Virus record (IMG/VR): IMGVR_UViG_3300032238_001229
Span: 1 to 49,517 of that record
DNA length: 49,517 nucleotides
Direction: 5' to 3' (one strand)
Source: a virus
Both the position numbers and the translations under genes were made by a program. The notes beneath the pieces are model-generated. The model saw nothing but the letters and a program-made list of their open reading frames with translations. It had not been told where the DNA came from and did not search any database. Below are positions 2 to 37,521 of this stretch, piece after piece (within the stretch, counting starts at the first letter, position 1; every line of letters starts with the position of its first letter).

Positions 2-2359
2 AGGACGCTAACTATTTGTAGCGGTAAACCTGGCAGGGAGAGGCGTCTGTATCAAATTGCACGTGAAAAGCAACAGCATTTTGTTCGTAACAAATATACA
101 TGGCATGCTGAAGAAAAAGGGGAGAAGCTAGAGATTCTTTGGTCTCGGCACCAGGGAGTGCTGATGGGTTTGCATCCTGAAACGGATGGATATTTTACGT
201 CGGAGGGAATGGGGTTTGAATGGACGGGCAACCTTCCGGAATTTCCGGAGTGTTTGTTAAATGAGATTATTACAAAAAATGTAAAGCAAGGTGTGCCAGC
301 CAAGGAGGTAACTCGGTTTGTTGGTCAAAACTTTGCAATTAATGCAGAAGTTTCTTTAGAGCGGGACATGCAGCTTGCAGTGGAAGCAATGCATGCACTG
401 CCTGCAGAAGCAGCAGATGACTATGACATTTGGATCACCATAGGTCAGACGTTGCATTCATTAGATGAATCCTTGCTGGATGAATGGGATGAATGGTCCA
501 GGCAAAGTGATAAGTATGTGGATGGCGAATGCCATAGGCGTTGGCTTTCTTTTAGCAAGGGCGGTGGACGCGGTATTGGTTCACTTTTTTACATTGCAAA
601 GGAACATGGGTGGTCTCCTCCGCAAGACCATAAAGTAAAAACTGTTGACGATGAACAGCTTGAAAAGCTGGCAAAGCTACCCACTGATATGGACACATTG
701 GAAATGGAAGCAATTTTGGAGAACGTGATGCCTCTGGCAACCAAGGTGCCGGTAGCGACCGTTGTACAGGAAAAAAGAAAACCTGGCCGCCCACGTAAAA
801 CCACAGAAGATGGTGAGCAAAAACAACGTGGTCGTAACGCATCGTCTGATCTTGTTACAGAGATGTTGTTGCAAATGTACCAGGGTAATTTGTTGTTTAG
901 CTTGAAACATAATCAGTTCTTTATGTATGAGCGGGATGGGCAAGGTCTTTGGTCTCCAATGAGTAAAGTTGAAATGGCTGGGGATATTCGTAGCAAACTG
1001 CTACAAGTTCGTGATGAAGGGGAGTTGATTGAAGGGTTTAATACTAAGTTGATTAATGATGTATATGAGCAACTGCAGGCAGCGCTCTACTTTAAGGAGT
1101 GGTATGAAGAAAGCCGTTACCTGTTGTTTACCAATGGGGTGTTGGATATTGAGACCAGGGTATTGCTTCCTTTTAGCAGGGAGATGTATCTGACACAACA
1201 ACAACCGTACGCATATGATGCAGCGGCTACGTGTGAAAAAATTGTTAAGTGGTTGAAGCATGTGCAACGTGATAGCTGGAATCGTACCCAAGTATTAAGG
1301 GCTTGGTTGCGGGCAACACTGCTTGGTCGCTACGAAATGCAAAAGTTTGTTGAGATTGTGGGGCCAGGAAAATCTGGTAAATCAACTTATGCAAACCTGG
1401 CTGTAGCACTGGTTGGCAGAAAGAATGTGTACTCAACTGATTTTGAAAACCTAGAGAAAAATAGGTTTGAAGCAGCTGGATATATGGGTAAAAAACTATT
1501 GCTGTTCCAGGATGCTGATCGGTGGGGCGGATCCGTTTCTAGGTTGAAGGCGATTACGGGCAGTGATTGGATTCGGTCGGAACGTAAGTATCAAAATGAG
1601 AATCAAGAACCATTTCAATTTAAAGGTGTTGTAATTATTACGGCAAACGAAGCTATTCAATCGACTGACTATACGTCAGGCTTGGCCCGTCGTCGTCTTA
1701 CCATTCCATTTGACCGTCCATTTACGGGCGGGCCTAATGAACAAAAAGAATTGATTAAGTTTAACCAGAAGGGTGATCCGAAGGGTGAGTTTGCTCCGTT
1801 GCTGCCAGGGTTGGTGAACTGGTTGTTGGATATGTCGGAGGAAGACATGAGAAGTTACCTGATGGAAACCTCTAAGAAAGTGGAGTTTTTCCGTAAGTAT
1901 GAAAAGATGCAAAACTTGCGGTCCAATCCATTGCTTGATTGGCTGGAACATAAGGTGATCTATGACCCAGGTGTGGCTAGTGCAATTGGATTTACAAAGA
2001 ATGCACCGATGGGATCATCTACTATTTATGCCAATCAAGACAAGTGGTTGTATGCAAGTTATGCAGAGTTTAGTAGGCAGTGCAATGTAGGCGTTTTGTC
2101 TCGTAGTCGTTTTGAAGTGTTGCTAATGGATATCTTAACTCATCAATTGAATTTGAAAGTAATTAGTAAGCGTACTACCAGAGGTGTGCGTGTTATTAAT
2201 GTGGCAGTACGGGAGTCCAGCCCTAAGTATGAAAATTGGCCAAGCGTTGTTGAAGTTACATCCGATCGGCAGAAGTACAAAGAATTTTATGGTATTGATA
2301 TTAGTGCGGATTCTGGTGCGAAAATAGAAGATGAATATGAGTTAGACACTGATGGGTAA
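2..2359 (+). CDS. Primase-polymerase / SF3 helicase (D5-like), 5' partial
   Basis: The frame is open from base 2, so the gene starts outside the window; the GTG at 158 is internal. The first ~85 residues (SGKPGR, LEILW, HQGVLMG, GYFTSEGMGFEWT) look like the end of a bifunctional primase-polymerase domain. A PriCT-like alpha-helical domain follows (around DDYDIWITIGQTL). After a basic linker comes a superfamily 3 helicase: Walker A GPGKSGKST at in-window codons ~454-462, Walker B-like KLLLFQDADRW, a sensor-like VVIITANEA, then a GLARRRLTIPF arginine segment. Such fusions prime and unwind DNA at phage and plasmid origins. It leads an operon with speD and a glycosyltransferase and overlaps speD by 8 bp. 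The family call rests on order and motifs seen here; the exact subfamily is inferred. Confidence 0.9.
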   Translation, partial: RTLTICSGKPGRERRLYQIAREKQQHFVRNKYTWHAEEKGEKLEILWSRHQGVLMGLHPETDGYFTSEGMGFEWTGNLPEFPECLLNEIITKNVKQGVPAKEVTRFVGQNFAINAEVSLERDMQLAVEAMHALPAEAADDYDIWITIGQTLHSLDESLLDEWDEWSRQSDKYVDGECHRRWLSFSKGGGRGIGSLFYIAKEHGWSPPQDHKVKTVDDEQLEKLAKLPTDMDTLEMEAILENVMPLATKVPVATVVQEKRKPGRPRKTTEDGEQKQRGRNASSDLVTEMLLQMYQGNLLFSLKHNQFFMYERDGQGLWSPMSKVEMAGDIRSKLLQVRDEGELIEGFNTKLINDVYEQLQAALYFKEWYEESRYLLFTNGVLDIETRVLLPFSREMYLTQQQPYAYDAAATCEKIVKWLKHVQRDSWNRTQVLRAWLRATLLGRYEMQKFVEIVGPGKSGKSTYANLAVALVGRKNVYSTDFENLEKNRFEAAGYMGKKLLLFQDADRWGGSVSRLKAITGSDWIRSERKYQNENQEPFQFKGVVIITANEAIQSTDYTSGLARRRLTIPFDRPFTGGPNEQKELIKFNQKGDPKGEFAPLLPGLVNWLLDMSEEDMRSYLMETSKKVEFFRKYEKMQNLRSNPLLDWLEHKVIYDPGVASAIGFTKNAPMGSSTIYANQDKWLYASYAEFSRQCNVGVLSRSRFEVLLMDILTHQLNLKVISKRTTRGVRVINVAVRESSPKYENWPSVVEVTSDRQKYKEFYGIDISADSGAKIEDEYELDTDG

Positions 2360-7681: not shown

Positions 7682-8356
7682 CTAGGCAACAATGCACCAC
7701 CCCGTGTTTGGGCCATCAGCCATCCAACGGGGTTCAAAATTTTTGTAACTGTAGTGTTTTTTGGCGCCATCGGTGCTGGGATAGGTGCCCGTAAGTAGGT
7801 CACATTCCCCCCAGGGGTCATTCACCCAATAACCGGTTTCGTCATAACCAATGATGCAAAGCCAGTGGCCACCACCTGTTGGTTGACTTGGTGTTCCATG
7901 ATGCAAGAATCCTGCTGGCACTGGCTTGCCTGAGTTAATTTGGTGTTTAATAAGTTCACGATTACCGCCTGTCATAAAAACAGCAGGCAAACCAAAGTGC
8001 TTTAGAGTTGCGACTTGAGTAGCGCCTTCAGTTGTATCACCAAAAGTAAAGACTACTTTAATGTAATCATCATCGGTTTTAATGCTGCCAGACTTAAGGT
8101 ATTTCAAAAGCATTGCACAGCTAGAGCTAAAACAAGTCCTGCTTGCATCACGGTAATTATCCCGCTGGCTCATGTACTGAACAGCTAACGGATTATTAAA
8201 TTTTGTTACAACATCAGATAAGTTTCTAAACCGTTTTAAAAACTCAGCCTGTTGTTCTTTTGATAAAATTCCCCAGGCATAAGCCCAAGCTTTGTCTTGG
8301 TGTTCCAAGGGTTTATCTTTATTCGTAGCCCAGGCAGCATCAAGGAATGTGGTCAT
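7682..8356 (-). CDS. C39-like cysteine peptidase, probable wall hydrolase
   Basis: 224 residues without signal peptide. The papain-like layout is visible: Gln64 in SQRDNYRDA, candidate nucleophile Cys75 in SRTCFSSS, His164 in GGGHWLCIIGYD, and Asn179/Asp180 in YWVNDPWGE. This is the order expected of C39_2-type peptidases (Q-C-H-N/D). Such domains in phages cut peptide bridges of peptidoglycan, as endolysins or tail parts. The gene begins 2 bp after the tail-fibre stop, so it is co-transcribed with the fibre, supporting a tail or lysis role. Its stop lies 2 bp from the end of the plus-strand fragment at 7679. Confidence 0.8.
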   Translation of the reverse strand: MTTFLDAAWATNKDKPLEHQDKAWAYAWGILSKEQQAEFLKRFRNLSDVVTKFNNPLAVQYMSQRDNYRDASRTCFSSSCAMLLKYLKSGSIKTDDDYIKVVFTFGDTTEGATQVATLKHFGLPAVFMTGGNRELIKHQINSGKPVPAGFLHHGTPSQPTGGGHWLCIIGYDETGYWVNDPWGECDLLTGTYPSTDGAKKHYSYKNFEPRWMADGPNTGWCIVA

Positions 8357-8358
8357 AA

Positions 8359-11300
8359 TTAGTTGGCCTGCATAGTAATCCAGTTTGTTCCGTCACTTAC
8401 AAGTGTAGCGTATTTGCCGGCAGTAGCAGCAAGGATTGCAGTGCCTGCTGCGCCACCTGCAAGGGGAACAACGTTAGACGATGCAGAAACAACCGTAAAA
8501 GCAGCAATAGTTTTTAACATTACCTCACGACCTGTCCATGAACTTGCTGCTGGCAAAGTGACAGTAATTGTTGCTGTACCATTACAAATAATCCAATTTT
8601 CTGTAATAGCAAGAGTAAAGCTAGCTGTCTTTGTTACTGGTGCACCACGCCCGATTGAGCCGGTGTGTGACGCAAAGCCATTGCTATCAATTCGCATCCG
8701 CTCAGTTGAACTAGCTGCACCATCTGCCGTAGTGGAGAACACTAGGCGGCCTGGCATGTCGTTGGTGCCAGGGGTGCCGTCTACAAAAGATTCAATTATC
8801 GCAGCACAAGTAACATTGGTTGCATCATCTCCACTAAATGTAATGCGGCCCAAGCGATCTCCGCTAGCAACAGCTCCGCTACTTTTTAAGTAGTTAAACT
8901 CAAGCTGAACACCCGTGGAGCCACCCGCGAAATCTTCTCCATTTATTGCAATTGCAGTTGCATTTGAGGCAGCATTTAAACCATTGCAGTAGGAAATGTA
9001 AGGGGCAGCTTGGCCTGTTAGTGTGACCCCTGTCCCTGAATCTGCAATTCTATGGGATGAACGGAAAGCGTTGCCACTAGCAGAGGCTTGGGCATTAACT
9101 TGCAGTAATGCGGTGCCGCTCGTAGACGTGCCAACTAAGAGCCTGCCGCTGTTGTCAATTCTGACGGACTCAGAGGATAACCCAGACTTCCAGAATGATG
9201 TACCGCTAGTGCCGCCCTGAAAGCGCAATTCATTTGTTGCATCAGTTCTGATATAACCGTTGTCACCAAAACTGACGTAACCATTGCCACCGCTAAACCT
9301 TCCAGCGCCAGCAACATCTAAGAGATAACTTGCCCCAGGGCTCGTAGTGCCAATCCCTAATCGCCCCGACGCATCCAACGTCATCGCCTGGGTGAAACTG
9401 ATGGTGTTGCCTGCGGTGCCGGAGGGGGCAGTGTACCAATAGTGGGCGCCAGTGTTGAGTTGATACAGGCCAGCAGCAGCAGTAGTTTTGTACAGCCAAC
9501 CAGAGGGATTATTGTAAGCATTGTTGGACAATGCTATATTAGCGCCATTTGAGCCTATTGCATTTGAATTACTAAATTCAATAACTTTCCATGTTGATAG
9601 CCAAGCACTCGGCACCCCCCCAATCCCAACGTTGCCGCTGCTGTCGATGCGGGCGCGTTCGGTGTTGCCGCCTGCATTAAGCAGTAAGTTTGCTTCCGCT
9701 CGAATAGCAAAATCCGCACTAGTGCCGGTAGTTGTAGCGCTTCCCCCTGCTCCCATGTATCCGATCACAGATGCACCGGAGTTCAAAAAAGTGCCGTAAT
9801 CATATCCAGCAGTTGTGCCCCTAAAGGTAAACCACGTTGTACTTGCTTGACTGACAACATACAATGCTGCCGTGGGGCTTGTAGTGCCAATCCCTACGTT
9901 GCCTGTTGCTGTGATGCGGAGGCGTTCAGTAAGTGAGCTATCAGCGGTTGAATTTCGTGTAGATATAGCCAAAAAGCCGGTCGTATTAGCTGCAGACGCA
10001 GTAAGACCACCACGAATAGAAGCAAAATATGTGCTTAAATAACCACCAAAAAATATGTCCCCTCCCTCTTGCGAGACTATGTCTGTTGTGCCAAGAAGTA
10101 AATTATTGCTAGTAGCGGCACATTTAATATCAACTTGGCTACTAGGTAAATTAGTACCAATCCCAACGTTGCCGCTTGCATCTACATACAGTCGCCCGGT
10201 ACCGCTAGTGCTGATAGCCAGTTGATTTGTTCCCGGAGAATAAAAACCATTGCTTGTGGTACCAACAGAAACAGAAGGAGCTCCTGCAGTACCTGATGCA
10301 AACACACCTGACGTAAAGTTTGCTGTTTGACCAGTAACTGTTGTACCTGAAAGAGTTACAAAATTAGCTGTAGTACCAGTAACTGTTGTACCTGAAAGAG
10401 TTACAAAATTAGCTGTAGTACCAGTAACCGTAACGCCTGTTACCGTACCAAAACCAGCTCTTACGCCAGTAACATCTGTAAATTGACCGGCATTACCAGT
10501 GACTGTTCCTCCTGATAAAAATGTAGTAAATACGCCTGATACACCATTAACAGTTGTAAAATTAGCGGCAGTACCGGTAGTTGTAGTGCCCGTCAAAGAT
10601 GTATAGTTACCTGTAGTTGCAATTACAGTGGTGCCAGTAATTGTTGCTCCAGATAAAAATGTAGTAAATACGCCAGACGCACCGTTATATGTTACAAAAT
10701 TAGCAGTGGTGCCAGTAGTTGTAGTACCTGTTAACGATGTATAGTTGCCAGTAGTTGCAACAACTGTTACACCTGATAGCAATGTACTAAAATTACCGGT
10801 TGTAAAGTTAGCCGTGGTACCAGTTACTGTTGCACCTGTAATAACAGTAAAAGCCCCTGAAACACCTGTGACAGTTGTAAATTGTCCATTTGTTCCAGTA
10901 ACAGTTATACCGCTAATTGTTCCGGTTACGCTAACTCCTGATTGAAAATATCCGGTACCTAGAACAGTTAAATCACCTGAGACAGTAGCACTTGAAAACT
11001 GAAGGTTTGAAAAAACGCCAGTAGCAGCTCTAACCGTTACTCCACTGAGAAGAACTCCGGTAACATTTGTAAAGTTTGCATTACCGCCAGTAAGTGTTGT
11101 AAATTGGCCAGCATTACCTGTAATTGTTGTTCCTGATAACGTAACAAAATTAGCAATTGTCCCAGTAACAGTTGCACCTGTGATTACGGTAAACCCACCG
11201 GAAATACCAGTGACTGTTGTAAATTGACCGCTTGTTCCAGTAACTGTTATGCCCGATACACTAGTACTAAAAGTGCCAGTTGCAAAGTTAGCTGTAGTGC

Positions 11301-12015
11301 CCGTTACCGTAACACCAGTAAGAGAAGTAAATGCACCAGATACACCAGTAATTGTTAAGCCTGAAATACGAGAAGTAAATACACCACTGACAAAATTACC
11401 ACTGGTACCCGTTACAGTTGCTCCAGTAATAGAAGTAAAACCTGCAGTATTTCCGGTAAGCGTGGTAAATTTTGCTGCATCACCAGTAATCGAACTAACG
11501 TTTACCGTAGTGCCTGTAATGGTTTGACCAGTAAAAGAAGTAAAGGCACCTGACGCACCAGTAATTGTTACGCCACTAATTCTTTGAAGAAAGTTGCCAG
11601 TAGTAAAATTTAATTCGCCGCCGGTTAATGTTGTAAAATTACCCAAGACACCATTGACGTTAGTACCTTGAATATTGGAACCTGTAACGGTAGCGCCACT
11701 AATTGTGCCGCTGACAGTTGCCCCACTTTGAGCAATAAGGGAGCCAACGGTAACTGCGCCCGTAAATGTAGCTGTTGCAAAGTTTGTACTACCGGAAACC
11801 GTAAGATTTCCTTGAACAATAACTGCACCGCTAATGGTTCCACCAGTGCGGGGTAGATAATACGTATTGAGATATTGTTTTGTGCCCGATATGGTTAATT
11901 TTCTATTTTTTAGTGTTGGGTCAACTTCGCTTACGTGAACAACCGTAAACAGGTCCTGATCTGCTAAGTCAAGACCTGCAAGTTCTTGGAGCTCAGATAT
12001 GCGCCTGTTAGCCAC
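8359..12015 (-). CDS. Giant repetitive tail fibre / adhesin
   Basis: 1218 residues. The N-terminus (~70 aa) is non-repetitive (RRISELQELAGLDLADQDLF). It is followed by roughly 500 residues of short repeats of the type TVTGTTANFVTLSG, rich in Thr, Gly, Ser and Val, which suggest a beta-helical shaft. The second half carries NVGIGTTSP/GRLGIGTTSPG modules, common in phage tail fibres and trimeric adhesins, and a final domain (TATITVTLPAASSW, GTNWITMQAN) seen at fibre tips. It should bind the host surface. DNA-level repeats in the shaft allow length change by recombination. No chaperone or peptidase-type tip domain was recognised. Confidence 0.9.
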   Translation of the reverse strand: MANRRISELQELAGLDLADQDLFTVVHVSEVDPTLKNRKLTISGTKQYLNTYYLPRTGGTISGAVIVQGNLTVSGSTNFATATFTGAVTVGSLIAQSGATVSGTISGATVTGSNIQGTNVNGVLGNFTTLTGGELNFTTGNFLQRISGVTITGASGAFTSFTGQTITGTTVNVSSITGDAAKFTTLTGNTAGFTSITGATVTGTSGNFVSGVFTSRISGLTITGVSGAFTSLTGVTVTGTTANFATGTFSTSVSGITVTGTSGQFTTVTGISGGFTVITGATVTGTIANFVTLSGTTITGNAGQFTTLTGGNANFTNVTGVLLSGVTVRAATGVFSNLQFSSATVSGDLTVLGTGYFQSGVSVTGTISGITVTGTNGQFTTVTGVSGAFTVITGATVTGTTANFTTGNFSTLLSGVTVVATTGNYTSLTGTTTTGTTANFVTYNGASGVFTTFLSGATITGTTVIATTGNYTSLTGTTTTGTAANFTTVNGVSGVFTTFLSGGTVTGNAGQFTDVTGVRAGFGTVTGVTVTGTTANFVTLSGTTVTGTTANFVTLSGTTVTGQTANFTSGVFASGTAGAPSVSVGTTSNGFYSPGTNQLAISTSGTGRLYVDASGNVGIGTNLPSSQVDIKCAATSNNLLLGTTDIVSQEGGDIFFGGYLSTYFASIRGGLTASAANTTGFLAISTRNSTADSSLTERLRITATGNVGIGTTSPTAALYVVSQASTTWFTFRGTTAGYDYGTFLNSGASVIGYMGAGGSATTTGTSADFAIRAEANLLLNAGGNTERARIDSSGNVGIGGVPSAWLSTWKVIEFSNSNAIGSNGANIALSNNAYNNPSGWLYKTTAAAGLYQLNTGAHYWYTAPSGTAGNTISFTQAMTLDASGRLGIGTTSPGASYLLDVAGAGRFSGGNGYVSFGDNGYIRTDATNELRFQGGTSGTSFWKSGLSSESVRIDNSGRLLVGTSTSGTALLQVNAQASASGNAFRSSHRIADSGTGVTLTGQAAPYISYCNGLNAASNATAIAINGEDFAGGSTGVQLEFNYLKSSGAVASGDRLGRITFSGDDATNVTCAAIIESFVDGTPGTNDMPGRLVFSTTADGAASSTERMRIDSNGFASHTGSIGRGAPVTKTASFTLAITENWIICNGTATITVTLPAASSWTGREVMLKTIAAFTVVSASSNVVPLAGGAAGTAILAATAGKYATLVSDGTNWITMQAN
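10331..10420 (-). repeat. Perfect 45 bp tandem repeat in the fibre shaft
   Basis: Two identical adjacent 45 bp units start at 10331 and 10376, coding for a 15-residue shaft unit (VTLSGTTVTGTTANF type). A larger, diverged duplication with a 138 bp period lies at about 10511 and 10649. Identity at DNA level points to recent slippage or unequal recombination. Confidence 0.85.
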
Positions 12016-25418: not shown

Positions 25419-26132
25419 CTAAGGAACGTAAGCCGTCAACAAATCAGGCTGTTGCTGTTGTGTAATTGCTTGCCACAGCAAATTATTTTTTGCATCGGCT
25501 AAAAGTTTTTGCGCAATTGTTTGACTCTCAATAGTTTGCCCAGTGGGATCTAGTTGATAACCTAATGCGGCGGAAAGAGAATCTCTTACGCTAGGAAAAG
25601 ATTGACCAGGAACACCCTGGTTAACGCTAGAAACCTGATCCGTAATTCCCGCACTTAATCTTTGCTTTAAAAGATCTGCAGCGCTTTTACTTGTATCAAA
25701 AAATACATTGCCTGCATTTTTTTCATCCCCACCATAAACATCCCCTTTACGTCGTTTGCTTGCTGGAATTGATGAACCACTTCTAAAAGAAAGAGGAACG
25801 CCGTAAGAGTTTACAGTGTTTAAAAGTGTGTTGGGATCATTAAGAAGCCCTAGTCTTTCCTGGTATTGTTTTGCGCCATATCGCTTCATCCAAAAGTTTG
25901 GATCTTCTGCCTGGGCACGGCTAATGCCTGCGTTAGCAACAAATTGATTTGGAGCCCAACCAACGTCAGTAGGTGTCTTTCCGTATCCAGGGACAAGCGT
26001 ACGTCCTAGTACAGTTGCAGCTACTAACGCTTGATCTTTAGTAGTATGCCCAGCTTCTCCCAGGTTGGTCCCTACCAGGGCAGTCATTTGCCCTGGGGTA
26101 AGGTTTAACAACTGCTGGGTAGTGCGTGGCAT
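25419..26132 (-). CDS. Possible SleB-like wall hydrolase (virion-associated)
   Basis: 237 residues. The N-terminal ~75 (VGTNLGEAGHTTKDQALVAA then TVLGRTLVPGYG, and GWAPNQFVAN) follow the pattern of SleB-type cell wall hydrolases: a Glu in a GEA motif, an A-x-V-x-x-R helix and a QF motif. If right, Glu in NLGEAG is the catalytic acid and the protein would open peptidoglycan during entry. The rest is helical and Ala/Gln-rich without a known fold. It is placed within the virion block. Confidence in the enzyme call is moderate because only short motifs support it. Confidence 0.5.
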   Translation of the reverse strand: MPRTTQQLLNLTPGQMTALVGTNLGEAGHTTKDQALVAATVLGRTLVPGYGKTPTDVGWAPNQFVANAGISRAQAEDPNFWMKRYGAKQYQERLGLLNDPNTLLNTVNSYGVPLSFRSGSSIPASKRRKGDVYGGDEKNAGNVFFDTSKSAADLLKQRLSAGITDQVSSVNQGVPGQSFPSVRDSLSAALGYQLDPTGQTIESQTIAQKLLADAKNNLLWQAITQQQQPDLLTAYVP

Positions 26133-26366: not shown

Positions 26367-27452
26367 TTACCGAGTCTGGAAAGGAATCTTGAGGGGCTCC
26401 CCTGGGTAAATGCCACCGCCATAAGCTGACATGTTAGGAATAGGATATGTTCCGACAGGGAGGGACAATGTTTGTTGTGTGGTTACAGAAGGAAATACAT
26501 TGGTAAGATTGTACGCTTCTTTCCAGGTGCTGTTGTATTCCCCAAAGCGTGGATCATTCATTGCGTTCATAGGAGTGCCTTCTAGCGGATGAATGATTGC
26601 TCCTTGCATTGAGTTTGCATACTCTTCTAGACCCGGAAGCTTAACCGAAGTTGCATAAGGATTAAACGTAGGTGTTGGCGTAGTCTGTTTATTGATTACA
26701 CTTTGAATGACATCATATCCAGCCTGACCAGGCTTAACTTTACTAGCAAGATCATTTTTGCTGCCAGGGCCATACTTCTGCGCCCAGATGCGCATGCCTA
26801 TGTCTTCAGATTTTGAATAATCTTTGGATGCAATATCACGTGCGCGTTGCTTAGCAAAATCATCTAGCTGCGGGTCCTGTGCAACTTGTTGTGCAGTACT
26901 GGAAAGCTGTTGTTGATAAGCTCGTTCCGCCGCTGGAGATTGGCCGGGAAAACCTGCGCCTGTACGAAAATTCTCCGCAGCTTGCCCTGCGGCTAATTCC
27001 TTTTCTTTATAGTTTGGTCCATAGTTTCTTGGTCCTCCTCTTAATTTTCGAAGCTCTGCTTCTTCTCCAGCATTTGCAGCTCTTGGGAAAACCATATCTA
27101 AAATAGGTCCGCCTACAGCACCTGCTAACGCAGGAATACCTATTGCAGTAGCGGCTCCGCCACCACCAAAATAAGGCGCAGCTTTAGCGGCAACTCCACC
27201 AAGATAAGATGCACCTTTACCAGCGGCGCCACGTAGCATGTTTAGTTCATTTGTCCCAAGATAACCTCCAGTTCCCGCTCTGATTGCAAGCTCCTTTCCA
27301 ATACCGCCTAAAGTTCTAAAGATGCTACCAACATTCCCAATGTTTGCAGTTGGTTTAGCACTTGCCGGTGAAATACCTGGTGGCGTCCTTAATCCTTCCA
27401 TGCGAATATCATATGGAGTAGGGGTATTCCTGCCAAGGGTTACATTAGCCAT
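26367..27452 (-). CDS. Internal virion protein with Gly/Ala-rich hydrophobic region
   Basis: 361 residues. An N-terminal Pro/Gly segment is followed by a Gly/Ala-rich, partly hydrophobic region at ~75-120 (YLGGVAAKAAPYFGGGGAAT, GIPALAGAVGGPILDMV), then a charged helical part with many Gln and Ala and a Pro-rich end. Amphipathic Gly/Ala regions like this occur in several proteins of this block and fit internal or ejection proteins that enter the host envelope. Its start overlaps the stop of the 153-residue gene by 1 bp. Confidence 0.7.
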   Translation of the reverse strand: MANVTLGRNTPTPYDIRMEGLRTPPGISPASAKPTANIGNVGSIFRTLGGIGKELAIRAGTGGYLGTNELNMLRGAAGKGASYLGGVAAKAAPYFGGGGAATAIGIPALAGAVGGPILDMVFPRAANAGEEAELRKLRGGPRNYGPNYKEKELAAGQAAENFRTGAGFPGQSPAAERAYQQQLSSTAQQVAQDPQLDDFAKQRARDIASKDYSKSEDIGMRIWAQKYGPGSKNDLASKVKPGQAGYDVIQSVINKQTTPTPTFNPYATSVKLPGLEEYANSMQGAIIHPLEGTPMNAMNDPRFGEYNSTWKEAYNLTNVFPSVTTQQTLSLPVGTYPIPNMSAYGGGIYPGEPLKIPFQTR

Positions 27453-27913
27453 TACCGATAAACCTCATGAAGATAGATACGTGAACCAACAGCGGTGTCA
27501 GCAGGTCCTGGCAACGCTTGAATAAACTCGGCACCAGAGCGTTCGTAGCGATACCGAGCTTGGAATTCATCCTTGTAGTTTGGCACAAAAAGAATACCGG
27601 CTAGACGATTTGTCTCATAGAGATAAATCTGATTCCAGACCTTAAGTGCTTCTGCAGCATTGCTTGAGCGAATCGTACGATCCACGTCACCAAGGATGCT
27701 TTCCAAGCGGGTGCTGGGATTAGACGCAACCTCGGTTTTCTTTTCAGCGGTATCGCAACGACCTAGTTGAATAATCAACTTGTCGTAAAAGTATGAGTCC
27801 GGGATTGTGTTAAGGGATTCTTCCAGGCGTGCATAGTCACCTGCCGGTACTGAAACCGTAAAGTATCCGAGATGGTACCGGACCCTGCTTTTATCGTACT
27901 CAGCTAGTTGCAC
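27452..27913 (-). CDS. Hypothetical head/neck protein
   Basis: 153 residues, well structured: YHLGYFTVSVPAGDYARLEE, FYDKLIIQLGRCDTAEKKTE, RTIRSSNAAEALKVWNQIYL and YRYERSGAEFIQALPGP. It has the size and mixed fold of a head-completion or connector protein, but no named family is recognised. It is coupled (1 bp overlap) to the 361-residue gene and follows the M23 gene with a 34 bp gap. Confidence 0.7.
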   Translation of the reverse strand: MQLAEYDKSRVRYHLGYFTVSVPAGDYARLEESLNTIPDSYFYDKLIIQLGRCDTAEKKTEVASNPSTRLESILGDVDRTIRSSNAAEALKVWNQIYLYETNRLAGILFVPNYKDEFQARYRYERSGAEFIQALPGPADTAVGSRIYLHEVYR

Positions 27914-27947: not shown

Positions 27948-28661
27948 TTAGGCTTGGCCATAAATTGCATTTAAATACTCAGAAGGAAGAGCTGTTGCCG
28001 AAGGCTGGAAAATAGAATCATTTTCATTGGCTCTATTAATTGCCGAAGCAAGAAGTTGTTGTTTAATCATATTAATTGGATTTGTTTGCTGCTCTGCATT
28101 CTTTTTGCCATAAAGAAAAGCAGTCAATAAATCATTGGTGCGCTGTTGCGATTGTTCGTATGTAGGCGATGTGCCAGCCTGTGGAGCTGCCCCAACGGTA
28201 GTGGCTGCTGGAAGTTGGCTCATGTGAAATACATCTAACTTGTATGGGCCTGTTTGTAAAGTTGAAATGTTACCTGCAGCACCTGCATTAGCTGTACCTT
28301 GAACGCTTCCTACCCCTGCAAAACGTAAATCAGTACCAAGAGGAAAAGCGTAATCTTCTCCGCCATGGGGCACGTTGCGGGCACTTGTCACAGGATGTAC
28401 TGATCTCGTTCCCATGCCTTCGGTCATGGGTACAATAGGATTTAATTGATACTGTCCCCCAGGTAAAGGAGAATACATTGGCCGCCAGTCTTGGCTACCT
28501 GGGAGTCGAAACTGAATATTCTGGCCAATGTCCCCACGAGCCTGAGATAATCCGTATTTCTTACCGTCTTTTGTAATTTCAAAATGACCATGAGGCCCAG
28601 TGGTGCGGCCAGTGGCTCCAATCTTGCCTAGTGGAACGTAAGTAGCAGCATCAAGTGCCAT
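27948..28661 (-). CDS. Circularly permuted M23 (LytM-type) metallopeptidase
   Basis: 237 residues from ATG 28661; an upstream in-frame ATG at 28706 lies inside a terminator and is rejected. M23 peptidases normally read HxxxD, then a His, then HxH near the end. Here the HxH end motif is at the start (GRTTGPHGHFEI, His24 and His26), followed by GMGTRSVHPVT, then PHGGEDYAFPLGTD (His99, Asp103) and FHMSQL (His146). All four metal or catalytic positions are kept but in permuted order. The enzyme would cut peptide cross-links of peptidoglycan, probably from the virion during entry. The remaining C-terminal ~85 residues are Gln/Ala-rich. Similar permuted forms come to mind from cyanophage virion blocks. 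Confidence 0.8.
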   Translation of the reverse strand: MALDAATYVPLGKIGATGRTTGPHGHFEITKDGKKYGLSQARGDIGQNIQFRLPGSQDWRPMYSPLPGGQYQLNPIVPMTEGMGTRSVHPVTSARNVPHGGEDYAFPLGTDLRFAGVGSVQGTANAGAAGNISTLQTGPYKLDVFHMSQLPAATTVGAAPQAGTSPTYEQSQQRTNDLLTAFLYGKKNAEQQTNPINMIKQQLLASAINRANENDSIFQPSATALPSEYLNAIYGQA

Positions 28662-28689: not shown

Positions 28690-28719
28690 CAAAAAAATCC
28701 CGTCACAATCGACGGGATT
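28690..28719 (-). terminator. Intra-block terminator between HhH and M23 genes
   Basis: AATCCCGTC / GACGGGATT perfect 9 bp stem (28696-28704 and 28711-28719) with a 6-base loop. On the minus strand it is followed by a run of T (28697-28691). It separates head genes upstream from M23 and later genes, so the latter may be less expressed or need another promoter. Confidence 0.85.
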
Positions 28720-28728
28720 AAATGTGAA

Positions 28729-29166
28729 TCACACTCTTACCAGATTTGCAGAAAAGACTGAATCCCAATCCACACGTTTCACTTGCTTCAACTGCTCCAG
28801 GCTATTAAACCTTTCACCTGACAGGCTCATTTGCAAGTCCTTAATTTCCCGAGCAGTCTTAAGACCAATCCCCTTAATGTGATCCGCAATCATTTGTGCC
28901 GTAGCACTATTAATATTAAGGCGGGTATCAGGAGGGAACTTGCGTGGTTCTTCAGCCGCAGCCTTATCTTTTACCTGAAGAGTTTTAACTTTTTTAGTTG
29001 CCTCTTCATCTGGCAAGAGTTCTGATTTGTAAGCGGTAAAAAGGCGACCGTCTTGGTCTTCAACCATATACCAGTCGCCATTATCAAACTCACTTACAAT
29101 CTTGACGCGAGCGCCATTCTTCTTGTGTTGGTAAAGCATGGATACCAGAGGGTGTCTGGTATCCAC
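28729..29166 (-). CDS. Helix-hairpin-helix protein (ComEA-like C-terminus)
   Basis: 145 residues. The N-terminal half looks like a small SH3/KOW-like barrel (KKNGARVKIVSEFDNGDWYM, GRLFTAYKSELLP). The C-terminal half contains RLNINSATAQMIADHIKGIG and LKTAREIKDL, the ComEA/topoisomerase-type helix-hairpin-helix that binds DNA backbone. In the middle of a virion block this suggests a DNA-contacting protein packaged in or near the head. It is followed by a terminator and preceded by the 278-residue structural gene 10 bp away. Confidence 0.8.
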   Translation of the reverse strand: MDTRHPLVSMLYQHKKNGARVKIVSEFDNGDWYMVEDQDGRLFTAYKSELLPDEEATKKVKTLQVKDKAAAEEPRKFPPDTRLNINSATAQMIADHIKGIGLKTAREIKDLQMSLSGERFNSLEQLKQVKRVDWDSVFSANLVRV

Positions 29167-30037: not shown

Positions 30038-30063
30038 AAGTTACTTAATTAAGTTACTTAATA
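30038..30063 (-). repeat. Short tandem repeat at the capsid gene end
   Basis: AAGTTACTTAATT and AAGTTACTTAATA, two adjacent 13 bp copies (12 of 13 identical), cover the capsid stop codon and the spacer to the next gene. The junction contains the palindrome CTTAATTAAG. It might be a processing or regulatory site; unknown. Confidence 0.6.
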
Positions 30064-31211
30064 ACGCCGTCATCCGAGACGAAGCTGAAGGCATCGGTAA
30101 TGAAGTCCTTATTGAGGATTTCAAAACCAGCGTACAGCTGCCAAATCAGGATGATGAAACGGCTGAAGTCATCGTTGTTGTTGATGAGCACCTGAGCGTT
30201 GGGGCCGCCGATACCGACGCCAACTGCCTGGGGACCAAAGAAGTAACCTTGGGCTGCTTCTTGGGAAGTGTAGGTGGAACCACCATCGAAGGAAGCGCTA
30301 ATCGTCTTGGTCGGGAAGTTGGTCGACTCAAAGAACTTAACACCTTCAAACTGCACGCCAGTAGGCATGACAGGTTCACCAGCAAGGAAATAACCTTGGC
30401 CGGCTTGGGGACCCATGTAGAAGCTGGCGTTGTTGGGCATACCGGGGTTGCCCATATACATCCCCTGACCGGGGTTGCCAGCGTAGCGAGCGATCTCACG
30501 GAAGTCGGGATCACGACGCAGGTGCATCATGAACGTAGGATCGCAAATGCAACGATACAGACCATCGGAATAGGTCGGCACGTTACGCTTACGCAAGTCC
30601 TTGACGACGTTCAGGAGGTCGGTACGAACTTGGAACTGCTGAACTTGAGCAGTGTATTCAGTAGAGGTATAGGAGATACGACCAGAGGAATCTTTGGTCT
30701 TACCGCCAGCAAAGTAGTAACCGCCCTGGGTGGTGTCAGCTTTACCATTGGCTTCAGCTTTGGCCAGTTCGTCAATGAAGACGCGGTCGCGCCAACGACG
30801 ATAGTCATCAAGCAGCGTCAGGCTACCGATGGACTGGTGGAACATGTTGAGGTTGCCAGTGTCCAGCAGCATGCGCTGGGCAGTGATCAGGGTCTCACGG
30901 GCAATCTTGAAGGTCGAAGGCTGGGTGGGATCGCCGGGGTCTGCAGGACCGGTATATTCCTTAAGCACCACCAGGACTTTCTCCTTGGTGATGTTACGGC
31001 TGTTAGCGGTACCGATGGTTTGATCGGCAATACGCTCACGGCTGTCCTTGGTACCAGGAGTACCCCAGAACTTATAGCGGTCTAGCTGAACGGTTTGGCC
31101 GGGTTGGCGAGTGAAGTCGTGAACAACCACGGGCTCAACTGCCATTTCCGCGATGTATGCAGGGTGGGGACGATAGAGTTCCGCACCAAGAATCTTGGGA
31201 AAATCGTTCTC
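30054..31211 (-). CDS. Major capsid protein, exon 2
   Basis: HK97-fold-type major capsid protein resembling the N4 gp56 group: GQTVQLDRYKFWG, STFKIARETLITAQRMLLDT, WRDRVFIDELAKAE, SDGLYRCICDPTFMMHLRRD. The ATG at 31145 is not the true start: the frame stays open upstream to 31211 and codes ENDFPKILGAELYRPHPAYI then AEMAVEP, which reads as part of the capsid protein. A stop (TAA 31229-31227) then appears inside a group I intron. So this is the second exon; about 386 residues plus 3-4 from exon 1. It assembles the capsid shell on the scaffold encoded just upstream. Codon use is GC-rich, as expected for high expression. Confidence 0.85.
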   Translation of the reverse strand, partial: ENDFPKILGAELYRPHPAYIAEMAVEPVVVHDFTRQPGQTVQLDRYKFWGTPGTKDSRERIADQTIGTANSRNITKEKVLVVLKEYTGPADPGDPTQPSTFKIARETLITAQRMLLDTGNLNMFHQSIGSLTLLDDYRRWRDRVFIDELAKAEANGKADTTQGGYYFAGGKTKDSSGRISYTSTEYTAQVQQFQVRTDLLNVVKDLRKRNVPTYSDGLYRCICDPTFMMHLRRDPDFREIARYAGNPGQGMYMGNPGMPNNASFYMGPQAGQGYFLAGEPVMPTGVQFEGVKFFESTNFPTKTISASFDGGSTYTSQEAAQGYFFGPQAVGVGIGGPNAQVLINNNDDFSRFIILIWQLYAGFEILNKDFITDAFSFVSDDGVIK

Positions 31212-32037
31212 CTGGTCTCTAGTTTCTTAGAGGGGTGGACTATCTCTTCATCCCTGAGGGATGCCGGACGCTAAATCTGGTATTACGCAGTAAGTTCGTA
31301 CTGCCCCCAGTAGTCTCTGCACCTTCCAATCACGGGCTTGATTGGCTTGGCTCAGGATTGCCCTCGTCTTTACGTTAGGGTTTCCCTGAATTCATCCGGT
31401 TTTCACTCATTAATTGCTTAATGAGGTGACAACGCTGAGCGTTCAGTTGAGGTGTGCTAAGCTTTGGAAACTTGTTCATGAACAAAATGAATCCAAAACT
31501 TGTACCTGGATTTGGAAATCTTTACCTTACAGAGGAGGGAGAGGCTTACGAAAAACAACTCAACCAAGATGATCAAGAGTATTTTCGTAAAATTCCTATT
31601 AGCTCAACCAGTGTGTACAACCGTATCTCGGTTCTTGTTAATGGAAAAAGAAAAAGATTTCATCTCCATGTTTTAATGGCTGTGGCCTTTTTAGGATTAG
31701 ATCTACGTTCACATGGAACTAGTAACTTTTCCTTACAAGTTGACCACATTGACAATAACAAGAAAAACAACTGTGTCGCAAATCTTGAAATTGTGACCAA
31801 ACAAGAAAACTTAACAAGAGCCTGGAAAACCGGATGTTACAAAAACAATGGGTTTGCTAGTAAGGGAAAACCAAAAAAAACTTTAAGAAAATTTTCTTCG
31901 GAAGACGTGGAGCAAATTAAATCTTTAAAAGAAGCAGGTCTTTCATATAGAAAGATAGCTGAAAAATTTAACTGCGGTCACGTAGCTATTTACCAAATCA
32001 TTAGCGGTAACACCTACCAGGATCTGAACTAGCTATC
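31212..32037 (-). ncRNA. Group I intron (subgroup IA-like) in the capsid gene
   Basis: Read on the minus strand, the conserved catalytic core is present in order: P element AATTCAGGGAAACCC (31393-31379), Q element AATCCTGAGCCAAGCC (31359-31344), R element GGTGCAGAGACTAC (~31323-31310), S element GAAGAGATAGTCCA (~31249-31236). P3 pairs CCGGA with TCCGG; P8 is CATCCC-TCA-GGGATG; the stem GCAGTA/TACTGC between R and P3' fits the P7.1/P7.2 extras of subgroup IA, as in T4 introns; P9 is CTCTA/TAGAG. The 3' end is placed after ACCAG (31212) because that keeps the reading frame. The 5' end is placed at 32037 (or 32034). The internal guide sequence was not found, so the 5' boundary is tentative. An HNH gene lies inside on the other strand. 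Confidence 0.88.
31478..32032 (+). CDS. HNH homing endonuclease inside the capsid intron (opposite strand)
   Basis: 184 residues from ATG 31478; GTG 31454 is the longer option. KRKRFHLHVLMAVAFLG, LQVDHIDNNKKNNCVANLEI and VTKQENLTRAW make a canonical HNH_3 nuclease. The C-terminus (FSSEDVEQIKSLKEAGLSYR then KIAEKFN) is a helix-turn-helix as in intron-encoded homing enzymes. Its stop ends 5 bases before the proposed 5' splice site. It would cut intron-less capsid genes of related phages and spread the intron. It is antisense to the capsid transcript, so it needs its own promoter; a GAGGTG lies at 31449. Confidence 0.9.
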   Translation: MNKMNPKLVPGFGNLYLTEEGEAYEKQLNQDDQEYFRKIPISSTSVYNRISVLVNGKRKRFHLHVLMAVAFLGLDLRSHGTSNFSLQVDHIDNNKKNNCVANLEIVTKQENLTRAWKTGCYKNNGFASKGKPKKTLRKFSSEDVEQIKSLKEAGLSYRKIAEKFNCGHVAIYQIISGNTYQDLN

Positions 32038-35994: not shown

Positions 35995-37521
35995 TTAGTA
36001 ATCAAGGTGAAGGTCTCCTTTCCTTGCTAATCCAGTAACTAACCAAACAAGAGCGTCGACACAATCGTCATGCCCACTTACTCCGAAGTTTGTGAGTTCC
36101 TCGAAGAGATTAGTGAAGTTTCTAAACCGGTTGAAGATGATTTTTCTGTCTTCAAACATGCCTATAATGCCACGGAATCGCGCAAGCTTATCTGCACGGA
36201 ACCCTTTCACTGGGTGCCAAATCAAGTTGTAGAGACTTTCGTTATTAAGACAGACGCGTTTAAAGTCTGCTTCCAGTGAAGCCTGATACTGTACAGCTTC
36301 AGACCAGATGTCACATGTTGAATAAGTCGGGAAATAATTACCGTTCATATCCTGGCCAATAATAGACCAATCATTAAGAAGTTCTTTTAGGGCGTCTAGT
36401 TTTTCTAAGTTGCCCATGACGCGAATACGCCTGTAATCAATGATGTGGATGACATCCCCTATTCGTCCACCAAGAACAAATACCGTGTAATCATTCTTTT
36501 CTTTAATGCCCGCAGACAAGTCAACGCCAATTCCCAGGGCATCAAACTCTGTTGCAATTTCCGCCTTAACAATAAGTTCTGGCGCCAGTGATAGTTCATT
36601 TTGTCTGACAATTTGATTCATGTATTGAAACGAAAAAGCAATAGGTGCTTGTCGTTTCTTTTCTTTTAGGTAATCTAACGACCACTGGGACGGCCAGTAA
36701 GAAATCTCTTCTCCTGTTTTTGGATCATTTTGAATTGCAGAAAGGACGATTTGGGTCCAATTGTTTTGTTCATTGAAGGTTGTTGCGTGAATATCGTCAT
36801 GCCTGAATCTGGTGCCAAGGCAGATAGCCCGCGCACCTTCAAACATAGTAGGAGCAATCACTGCGTTCCAGTTATCTTGCATAGTTTTGCGGATGTCAGG
36901 ATTACTAATGTCCGCCGCAGATTTAATAGGGTCATCGATACAGACTAGGTGTGAACGCTTGGAAGTCACTGAACCCTTGAGGCCTGCAGCACATAAGGTA
37001 AATTGTTCATCACCAGTGGTATCAATCCCTGCAAAGCGATGATCAATAGACCAATACTCATTACTGGTTACGTTTTTTAGAAGGCGTACCGTTGGGAATA
37101 CTTCTTGATATCGTTTGCTCTCAATGATGCGTTTAATCGTTGCCGACTTAGAGCGAGCAATATCTACGGTGTACGAAAGGTACAGAATCTGAAGAGGCTT
37201 CTTAGCGGTGGTGTGTACACCAATGGCCCAGGCGGTAAACAAACCTAAGATTGTAGACTTTGCTGATCCACGAGGAGCAAGCAAATCAATATTGGGACCA
37301 CCAATTTTTGTAAGGCAAGCGCTATCGGTATCTGTTACGAAATGTTTGTGCCAATCTTTATGGTGATCGGCGGGAGGCTTATCGGCTACGTAGTCACAAA
37401 AGTAACCAAAGTCATCACGAGCTTTTTGAATTTGCTCAATATTTCTAACTTCTTTGATTTGATGATTTTTTGCAACAGCACGTGCATTCCTACGGTAAGC
37501 AAGATGTAAGTAGGAAGGCAT
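35995..37521 (-). CDS. Terminase large subunit
   Basis: 508 residues. ATPase domain: Walker A APRGSAKST at ~82-90, Walker B HLVCIDDP at ~191-198, and a motif III-like CLGTRFRHDD. C-terminal RNase H-type nuclease: Asp334 in GVDLSAG, DMNG and a final GHDDCVDALVWL with the expected acidic residues. The enzyme drives DNA into the portal and cuts the concatemer. No small subunit is certain; the 198-residue gene or the 50-residue gene upstream are candidates. The start MPSYLHLAYRR lies 32 bp downstream of the small gene's stop. Confidence 0.96.
   Translation of the reverse strand: MPSYLHLAYRRNARAVAKNHQIKEVRNIEQIQKARDDFGYFCDYVADKPPADHHKDWHKHFVTDTDSACLTKIGGPNIDLLAPRGSAKSTILGLFTAWAIGVHTTAKKPLQILYLSYTVDIARSKSATIKRIIESKRYQEVFPTVRLLKNVTSNEYWSIDHRFAGIDTTGDEQFTLCAAGLKGSVTSKRSHLVCIDDPIKSAADISNPDIRKTMQDNWNAVIAPTMFEGARAICLGTRFRHDDIHATTFNEQNNWTQIVLSAIQNDPKTGEEISYWPSQWSLDYLKEKKRQAPIAFSFQYMNQIVRQNELSLAPELIVKAEIATEFDALGIGVDLSAGIKEKNDYTVFVLGGRIGDVIHIIDYRRIRVMGNLEKLDALKELLNDWSIIGQDMNGNYFPTYSTCDIWSEAVQYQASLEADFKRVCLNNESLYNLIWHPVKGFRADKLARFRGIIGMFEDRKIIFNRFRNFTNLFEELTNFGVSGHDDCVDALVWLVTGLARKGDLHLDY

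Follow-up and report, generated by a model that had tools for sequence, protein, structure and literature searches.

The peptidase gene and its neighbours

The stretch of DNA analysed here (the window, 49,517 bases at its full length) is the record of a cyanobacterial virus related to Synechococcus phage S-EIVl, to which its TerL is 82% identical and the protein encoded at 27452-27913 80%. On the minus strand we found a gene for an M23-type peptidase (Table 1) in which the block that usually ends an M23 domain comes first and is followed by a linker, by the block that usually opens the domain and by a C-terminal tail. The linker is conserved as highly as the catalytic halves, with L38, S39, R42, D44, G46, Q47, R52, P54 and W59 invariant. 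The tail evolves fast (on average 35% identical to the window protein in the family alignment, against 66-70% for both halves); AlphaFold places two helices in it (residues 168-188 and 195-213, with low pLDDT), and it could possibly act as a virion anchor.

Table 1. Parts of the peptidase gene and the genes discussed with it (positions in the window)
Feature	Position	Strand	Evidence and remarks
M23 gene with permuted block order, whole	28661..27948	-	237 aa; ATG start; stop 27950-27948
C-terminal M23 block, now first (residues 8-31; H24, H26)	28569..28640	-	PF01551 69-93; ShyA 332-361
GPHGHFEI (residues 22-29)	28598..28575	-	Inside first block
Linker (residues 32-78), from old C-terminus to old N-terminus	28428..28568	-	
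N-terminal M23 block, now second (residues 79-150)	28212..28427	-	ShyA 249-318; NCBIfam ShyA/MepM; invariant columns
R86	28406..28404	-	Second block
H99-G-G-E-D103 (HGGED, residues 99-103)	28367..28353	-	Second block
Catalytic H146	28226..28224	-	Second block
C-terminal tail (residues 151-237)	27951..28211	-	Pro/Thr-rich, then helical; low model confidence
Terminator-like hairpin, just upstream of the peptidase gene	28696..28719	-	10 pairs and T-run
Helix-hairpin-helix (HHH) protein, directly upstream in nearly every relative	28729..29166	-	PF12836, E 6.7e-6; synteny
phrog_29158 protein, directly downstream where the relatives' contigs reach	27452..27913	-	E 6.6e-74; synteny
Major capsid protein, upstream in the same block	30054..31145	-	phrog_1357, E 3.4e-17; synteny
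Separate phage lysozyme	16541-17260		PF00959 (Phage_lysozyme), E 9e-19

The gene order portal, capsid, g278, HHH protein, permuted M23, phrog_29158 protein and further virion-block genes is kept across the lineage. The placement of the gene in a virion block, made in a first-pass annotation of the window, thus holds at the level of synteny (kept order from the capsid gene to the downstream virion genes), and a place of the protein in the particle itself would be in line with it. Several relatives have a G-run/T-run sequence like that of the hairpin before the peptidase start, which suggests that the peptidase gene has transcription control of its own, with the limit that terminator-like sites as a class do not rise above the shuffled-sequence level. 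We also observed that the permuted peptidase (35-65% identical among relatives, the two closest left out) diverges much faster than both direct neighbours (mostly 72-88%), as a host-facing protein might.

Several other genes of the window deserve mention. Three genes downstream, the product of 25419-26132 (minus strand) weakly resembles SleB-type wall hydrolases (PF07486, E 0.19, a lead only) and may be a second wall hydrolase of the virion block. A C39-like peptidase (7682-8356, minus strand; PF13529, E 4.8e-10) adjoins a tail-fibre-like protein of great length and repetitive sequence (8359-12015). An HNH-like ORF lies on the opposite strand between the portal and capsid genes (31454-32032, plus strand), an interval in which S-EIVl (L015) also has an opposite-strand ORF (L015:8785-9546). 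TerL has 508 residues in the window (35995-37521, minus strand) and 846 in S-EIVl (L015:2081-4621); since the two proteins differ so much in length and match in two pieces, the TerL of S-EIVl probably has an insertion such as an intein.

Reversed order of the M23 blocks

The end of the M23 domain was found near the start of the window protein, where residues 11-35 match positions 69-93 of PF01551 (E 2.3e-5) with 24.9 bits, a score that misses the Pfam gathering cut-off of 28.7 bits, which the orthologs L028 (33.9) and L018 (30.6) exceed. Against ShyA, residues 81-150 align with 249-318 and residues 11-40 with 332-361, that is, in reverse order (whole-protein E 6.7e-10), and the NCBIfam ShyA/MepM models match residues 84-149 (E 5e-10 to 2e-7). 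The Pfam, ShyA and NCBIfam matches support the M23 identity given in the first-pass annotation, and the order that it had read (GPHGHFEI first, HxxxD and the second histidine after it) is confirmed by the PF01551 and ShyA blocks, for a gene on the minus strand.

The M23 active site comprises two histidines and one aspartate on zinc, the first histidine of HxH, a histidine about 30 residues before HxH and an oxyanion-stabilising tyrosine or arginine (PMC9662197). All of these are present in the window protein: H99, D103 and H26 as the zinc set (so that the metal-binding positions are indeed all kept, as had been claimed), H24 and H146 as the catalytic histidine pair and R86 as the arginine of the FGxR motif. 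The HxxxD zinc motif (H99-GGE-D103) is invariant and HxH is represented by H24-G-H26. The spacing of the catalytic histidine is off, as H146 stands 120 residues after HxH instead of about 30 before it. In the window protein and all relatives read the motifs run HxH, HxxxD, His, compared with HxxxD, His, HxH in canonical controls. Both M23 halves thus lie reversed in a single ORF and are joined via the old termini, as in a circular permutant; the linear order and the score do not agree with a collinear M23 protein, and the protein was therefore classed as a circularly permuted M23 variant. The junction had been put near residue 85, which is about right, the halves being joined by residues 32-78.

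Relatives were found at 27 IMG/VR loci (L020-L022 are not in the translated set and L029 is truncated by the end of its contig). The permuted order occurs in all 23 of the 23 translated IMG/VR relatives with both halves, several of them near-identical copies, and in the isolate S-EIVl; H24, R86, H99, D103 and H146 are invariant in a set of 17 sequences. The peptidase gene is under purifying selection, with a dN/dS of 0.048-0.126 in eight of the nine computable pairs (one with saturated dS) and of 0.225 in a nearly identical pair. A profile search of bacterial and archaeal genomes with the lineage's protein yielded 55 stretches, none of them a relative.

A canonical M23 profile (129 columns, built from 15 canonical proteins) scored the window protein at 22 bits and its relatives at 20-46 bits, compared with 4.9 bits for the best of 1,000 residue-shuffled proteins. 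On this profile the cut falls between the YxHL strand (around column 78) and the GxxIGxxG strand (around column 92), and the loop VkpGqkVkrG is absent. When the profile was doubled head to tail and run on 17 permuted proteins, most of them were matched as one domain spanning the junction (columns about 92 to 207); 13 of the 17 gained 5 to 29 bits and the remaining four changed by -0.9 to +2.7 bits, while canonical controls changed by -1.5 to +2.0 bits and 1,000 shuffles scored at most 5.6. The window protein (-0.5 bits) and L008 (-0.9 bits) did not gain and their match remained split, probably because of the long linker. The circular permutation proposed earlier is supported by the reversed blocks, by the order in the family and by the doubled-profile test, in which the window protein itself is neutral.

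Pfam reports half-domains at most for the permuted proteins studied here, and for the window protein the C-block alone, as might be expected of an ordinary collinear M23 protein whose absent blocks are supplied by another copy of the domain, by a neighbouring gene or through a frameshift. We find such an explanation hardly credible: the whole record holds a single M23 match, the neighbouring genes searched hold none, and the same single-ORF order in 23 relatives already refutes it, so that a split or frameshifted canonical gene is ruled out. The block order in this gene is real and, since quite unrelated viruses have the same swapped form in their tail proteins, it appears to be a genuine natural re-cut.

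Permuted M23 domains in other phages and the predicted fold

The permuted M23 domain was found in three settings: as a stand-alone protein, within tape-measure proteins and within a tail protein. The ortholog of S-EIVl (AHV82231.1) has the same locus and the same permuted order; it differs in having HxD instead of HxH, and its record, 'peptidase M23 family', gives plain M23 without mention of a permutation. Residues 21-149 of the S-EIVl protein align as a single stretch with Acinetobacter phage tape-measure proteins (31% over 129 aa, E about 4e-5), and these tape-measure proteins contain GTGPHLDVR, then SSFHKGIDFSMPEGT, then LKLLHQSP, which is the permuted order, found also in Moraxella phage Mcat20 and in seven Acinetobacter genomes. 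The Acinetobacter (Vieuvirus) and Moraxella phage proteins concerned (phrog_1506, phrog_20119/20905) bear no annotation beyond tape-measure or tail protein; they are long and helical, and the permuted M23 block inserted in them has a linker of about 20 aa, compared with about 45 in the window lineage. The tape-measure-type domain has relatives in 366 IMG/VR stretches, the 80 retained ones sharing 93% identity or more. In a genome survey with a mixed permuted profile (full-length hits, E <= 1e-18), 8 of 199 Moraxellaceae genomes had a permuted hit, with both HxH and HxD occurring; elsewhere such hits were found in 1 of 369 sampled Gammaproteobacteria (the survey's centre genome itself) and in 2 of 293 genomes in the order, and none at this threshold in 299 Bacillota genomes, a zero that comes without a positive control.

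The third setting is that of S-TIM5 gp111, with DIIGWVGYSGES..GAHLHMEI, NHTGVDIAD and IFLAHL, and of S-TIM54 and S-TIM66, which have the same permuted order. These proteins have HxH, as does the window protein, and differ from it in that the permuted domain belongs to a tail protein of 1000 aa, which carries a C-terminal Phage_lysozyme2 domain and has kept the M23 middle segment upstream; a relative of the S-TIM5 domain was not found in IMG/VR. The permutation is thus not the local oddity that it had been taken for, as a wider permuted group exists that includes tape-measure and tail proteins of other phages. Sequence-similar proteins of the T4-like cyanophages ACG-2014f, Syn1, S-RIM44 and B23, and of Vibrio phage Yong MS32, ctEw122 and PaV-LD, were rejected, having the canonical order.

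Closest to the window protein, by sequence as well as by structure, are ShyA, MepM, NMB0315 and Csd3 (PF01551), with which it has HxxxD, the catalytic histidine, HxH and the FGxR arginine in common. Compared with these enzymes it has the C-block before the N-block, lacks the VkpGqkVkrG loop and carries a linker and a helical tail in addition; none of their other domains was seen in it. An AlphaFold model of the window protein, made from an alignment of ten sequences, has a pLDDT of 79-95 over residues 21-150 and confident strands over residues 8-156, the rest being disordered or helical tail. A Foldseek search of this model against the PDB gave no match at E <= 0.001. In a second structural comparison with the PDB, ShyA (Z 5.1), NMB0315 (4.8) and Csd3 (4.8) lead with modest scores (87-89 residues superposed, rmsd 3.0-4.1), followed by an unrelated capsid protein (Z 2.8). 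With confident strands in the model, and three M23 enzymes as the only solved structures above background, the predicted fold is consistent with the retained beta fold that had been proposed. The first-pass annotation had named a structure without the M23 beta-sheet as grounds against its reading; such a structure was not predicted, and the superposed range (44..156) covers the N-half and part of the linker only, as is expected for a permuted fold because the aligners follow sequence order. In a viral structure library the top matches were A0A510E7V3_3 (probability 1.00), S-TIM5 H6WFX6 (0.99) and a tape-measure fragment (0.91). The same three viral proteins, each with probability 1.00, lead for a model of the tape-measure version (own alignment, pLDDT 64), which is weak evidence by itself and for which no M23 enzyme was among the PDB matches listed in the second comparison. 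S-TIM5 gp111, a top match shared by both models, was read as permuted independently from its sequence.

The sequence pattern would be identical if the C-half of one subunit completed the N-half of its neighbour in a multimeric virion ring; rings are common among virion proteins, and the helical tail could oligomerise. Such a domain-swapped oligomer is nevertheless quite improbable, as a single chain was modelled as one mostly confident domain and the joint between HxH and HxxxD in S-TIM54 has only 40 residues, about enough for closure of the old termini in one chain.

Position 26 is a histidine or, in L027 and L028, an aspartate in the 17-sequence set, and HxD in place of HxH was observed at L015:11380-12126, L027, L028, L030, L146 and L148. 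Since some members (S-EIVl, L027, L028 and several tape-measure proteins) have HxD, and since inactive M23 (LytM) factors such as EnvC exist (PMC9662197), the permuted fold might have been retained as a catalytically dead virion scaffold. We regard this as unlikely, since the five invariant residues listed above are kept across the family read, related tape-measure proteins switch between HxH and HxD, and L032 is an M23 protein with HxD in canonical order, so that HxD need not mean a dead enzyme.

Origin, role and implications

Along S-TIM5 and S-TIM66 the columns of the canonical profile run 70-95, then 88-113, then 5-75. The M23-middle-like segment QEYTSLAGINVKEGDKVEIGQIIGSV (L042:8622-8699, residues 432-457 of S-TIM5 gp111) lies upstream of the permuted block. 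A 'missing' M23 segment that stands upstream and overlaps the next block fits a tandem pair stripped of its outer halves, and the segment is possibly a relic of a tandem duplication. Judged from their linkers, all three groups seem to have the blocks joined much as if the ordinary C-terminal tail of M23 continued straight into the ordinary N-terminal strand. We infer as the probable route a tandem duplication of M23, followed by loss of the first N-half and the second C-half; the new ends of the ancestral fold would have arisen in the loop that connects the catalytic-His strand (YxHL) to the strand toward HxH, at a cost of about 14 residues, and the conserved linker would have joined the old termini. 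In a tree of 135 columns the tape-measure group has a support of 87 and the S-TIM group of 68, and one or several origins of the permuted forms are neither supported nor rejected (AU p 0.43). It is conceivable, though we put it forward tentatively, that one M23 permutation gave rise to a peptidase clade of its own, which spread through unrelated tailed phages thanks to new termini that allow insertion in virion rods such as the tape-measure proteins, with the S-TIM proteins as the duplication intermediate.

In our view the product of the window gene is quite likely a circularly permuted M23 zinc endopeptidase whose halves form one active site, and probably a virion-carried entry enzyme. Both halves would refold into a single M23 site in which H99, D103 and H26 bind zinc, H24 and H146 activate the water and R86 stabilises the intermediate. 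As the first-pass annotation suggested, the permutation may also have shifted the active-site groove with respect to partner proteins. Given that the nearest relatives are ShyA, classed as a D-Ala-mDAP D,D-endopeptidase (PMC9662197), and MepM, the best inference is a D,D-endopeptidase that the virion carries for DNA entry; the enzyme would most likely ride in the virion and cut D-Ala-mDAP cross-links of the cyanobacterial wall at DNA entry, leaving host lysis to the separate lysozyme gene. The same permuted enzyme could also be the lysis endolysin, in line with the occurrence of M23 domains in endolysins and with the lysis label on some weak PHROG hits. This seems rather unlikely, as the lineage keeps the gene between the capsid gene and virion genes downstream of it, permuted copies elsewhere sit in tape-measure and virion structural proteins, and the same record has a separate phage lysozyme gene, which is the likelier endolysin.

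A natural re-cut of M23 is apparently undescribed: no earlier description of a permuted M23 was found in the open-access literature searched, a coverage that takes in few subscription journals, and the word stem 'permut' is absent from an M23 review (PMC9662197). A precedent, and no more, is found in the circularly permuted NlpC/P60 families YaeF/G6R and LRAT-like (Anantharaman and Aravind 2003, via PMC6403190), in which a peptidoglycan-peptidase fold was likewise permuted naturally with its catalytic residues kept, this being a cysteine-peptidase fold unrelated to M23. With the window protein and its relatives, the short list of wall hydrolases known to be naturally permuted gains a zinc enzyme. 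M23 ranks among the main wall-cutting families, and a permutant with a kept active site shows where the fold tolerates new ends. It also gives annotation programs a reason to seek split, reversed M23 hits, as the tape-measure copies go without a peptidase name. The S-EIV1 genus-level group, which made up 3.3% of marine cyanophage content in one survey (PMC5332604), is a little-studied lineage that gains a testable candidate for its entry enzyme.
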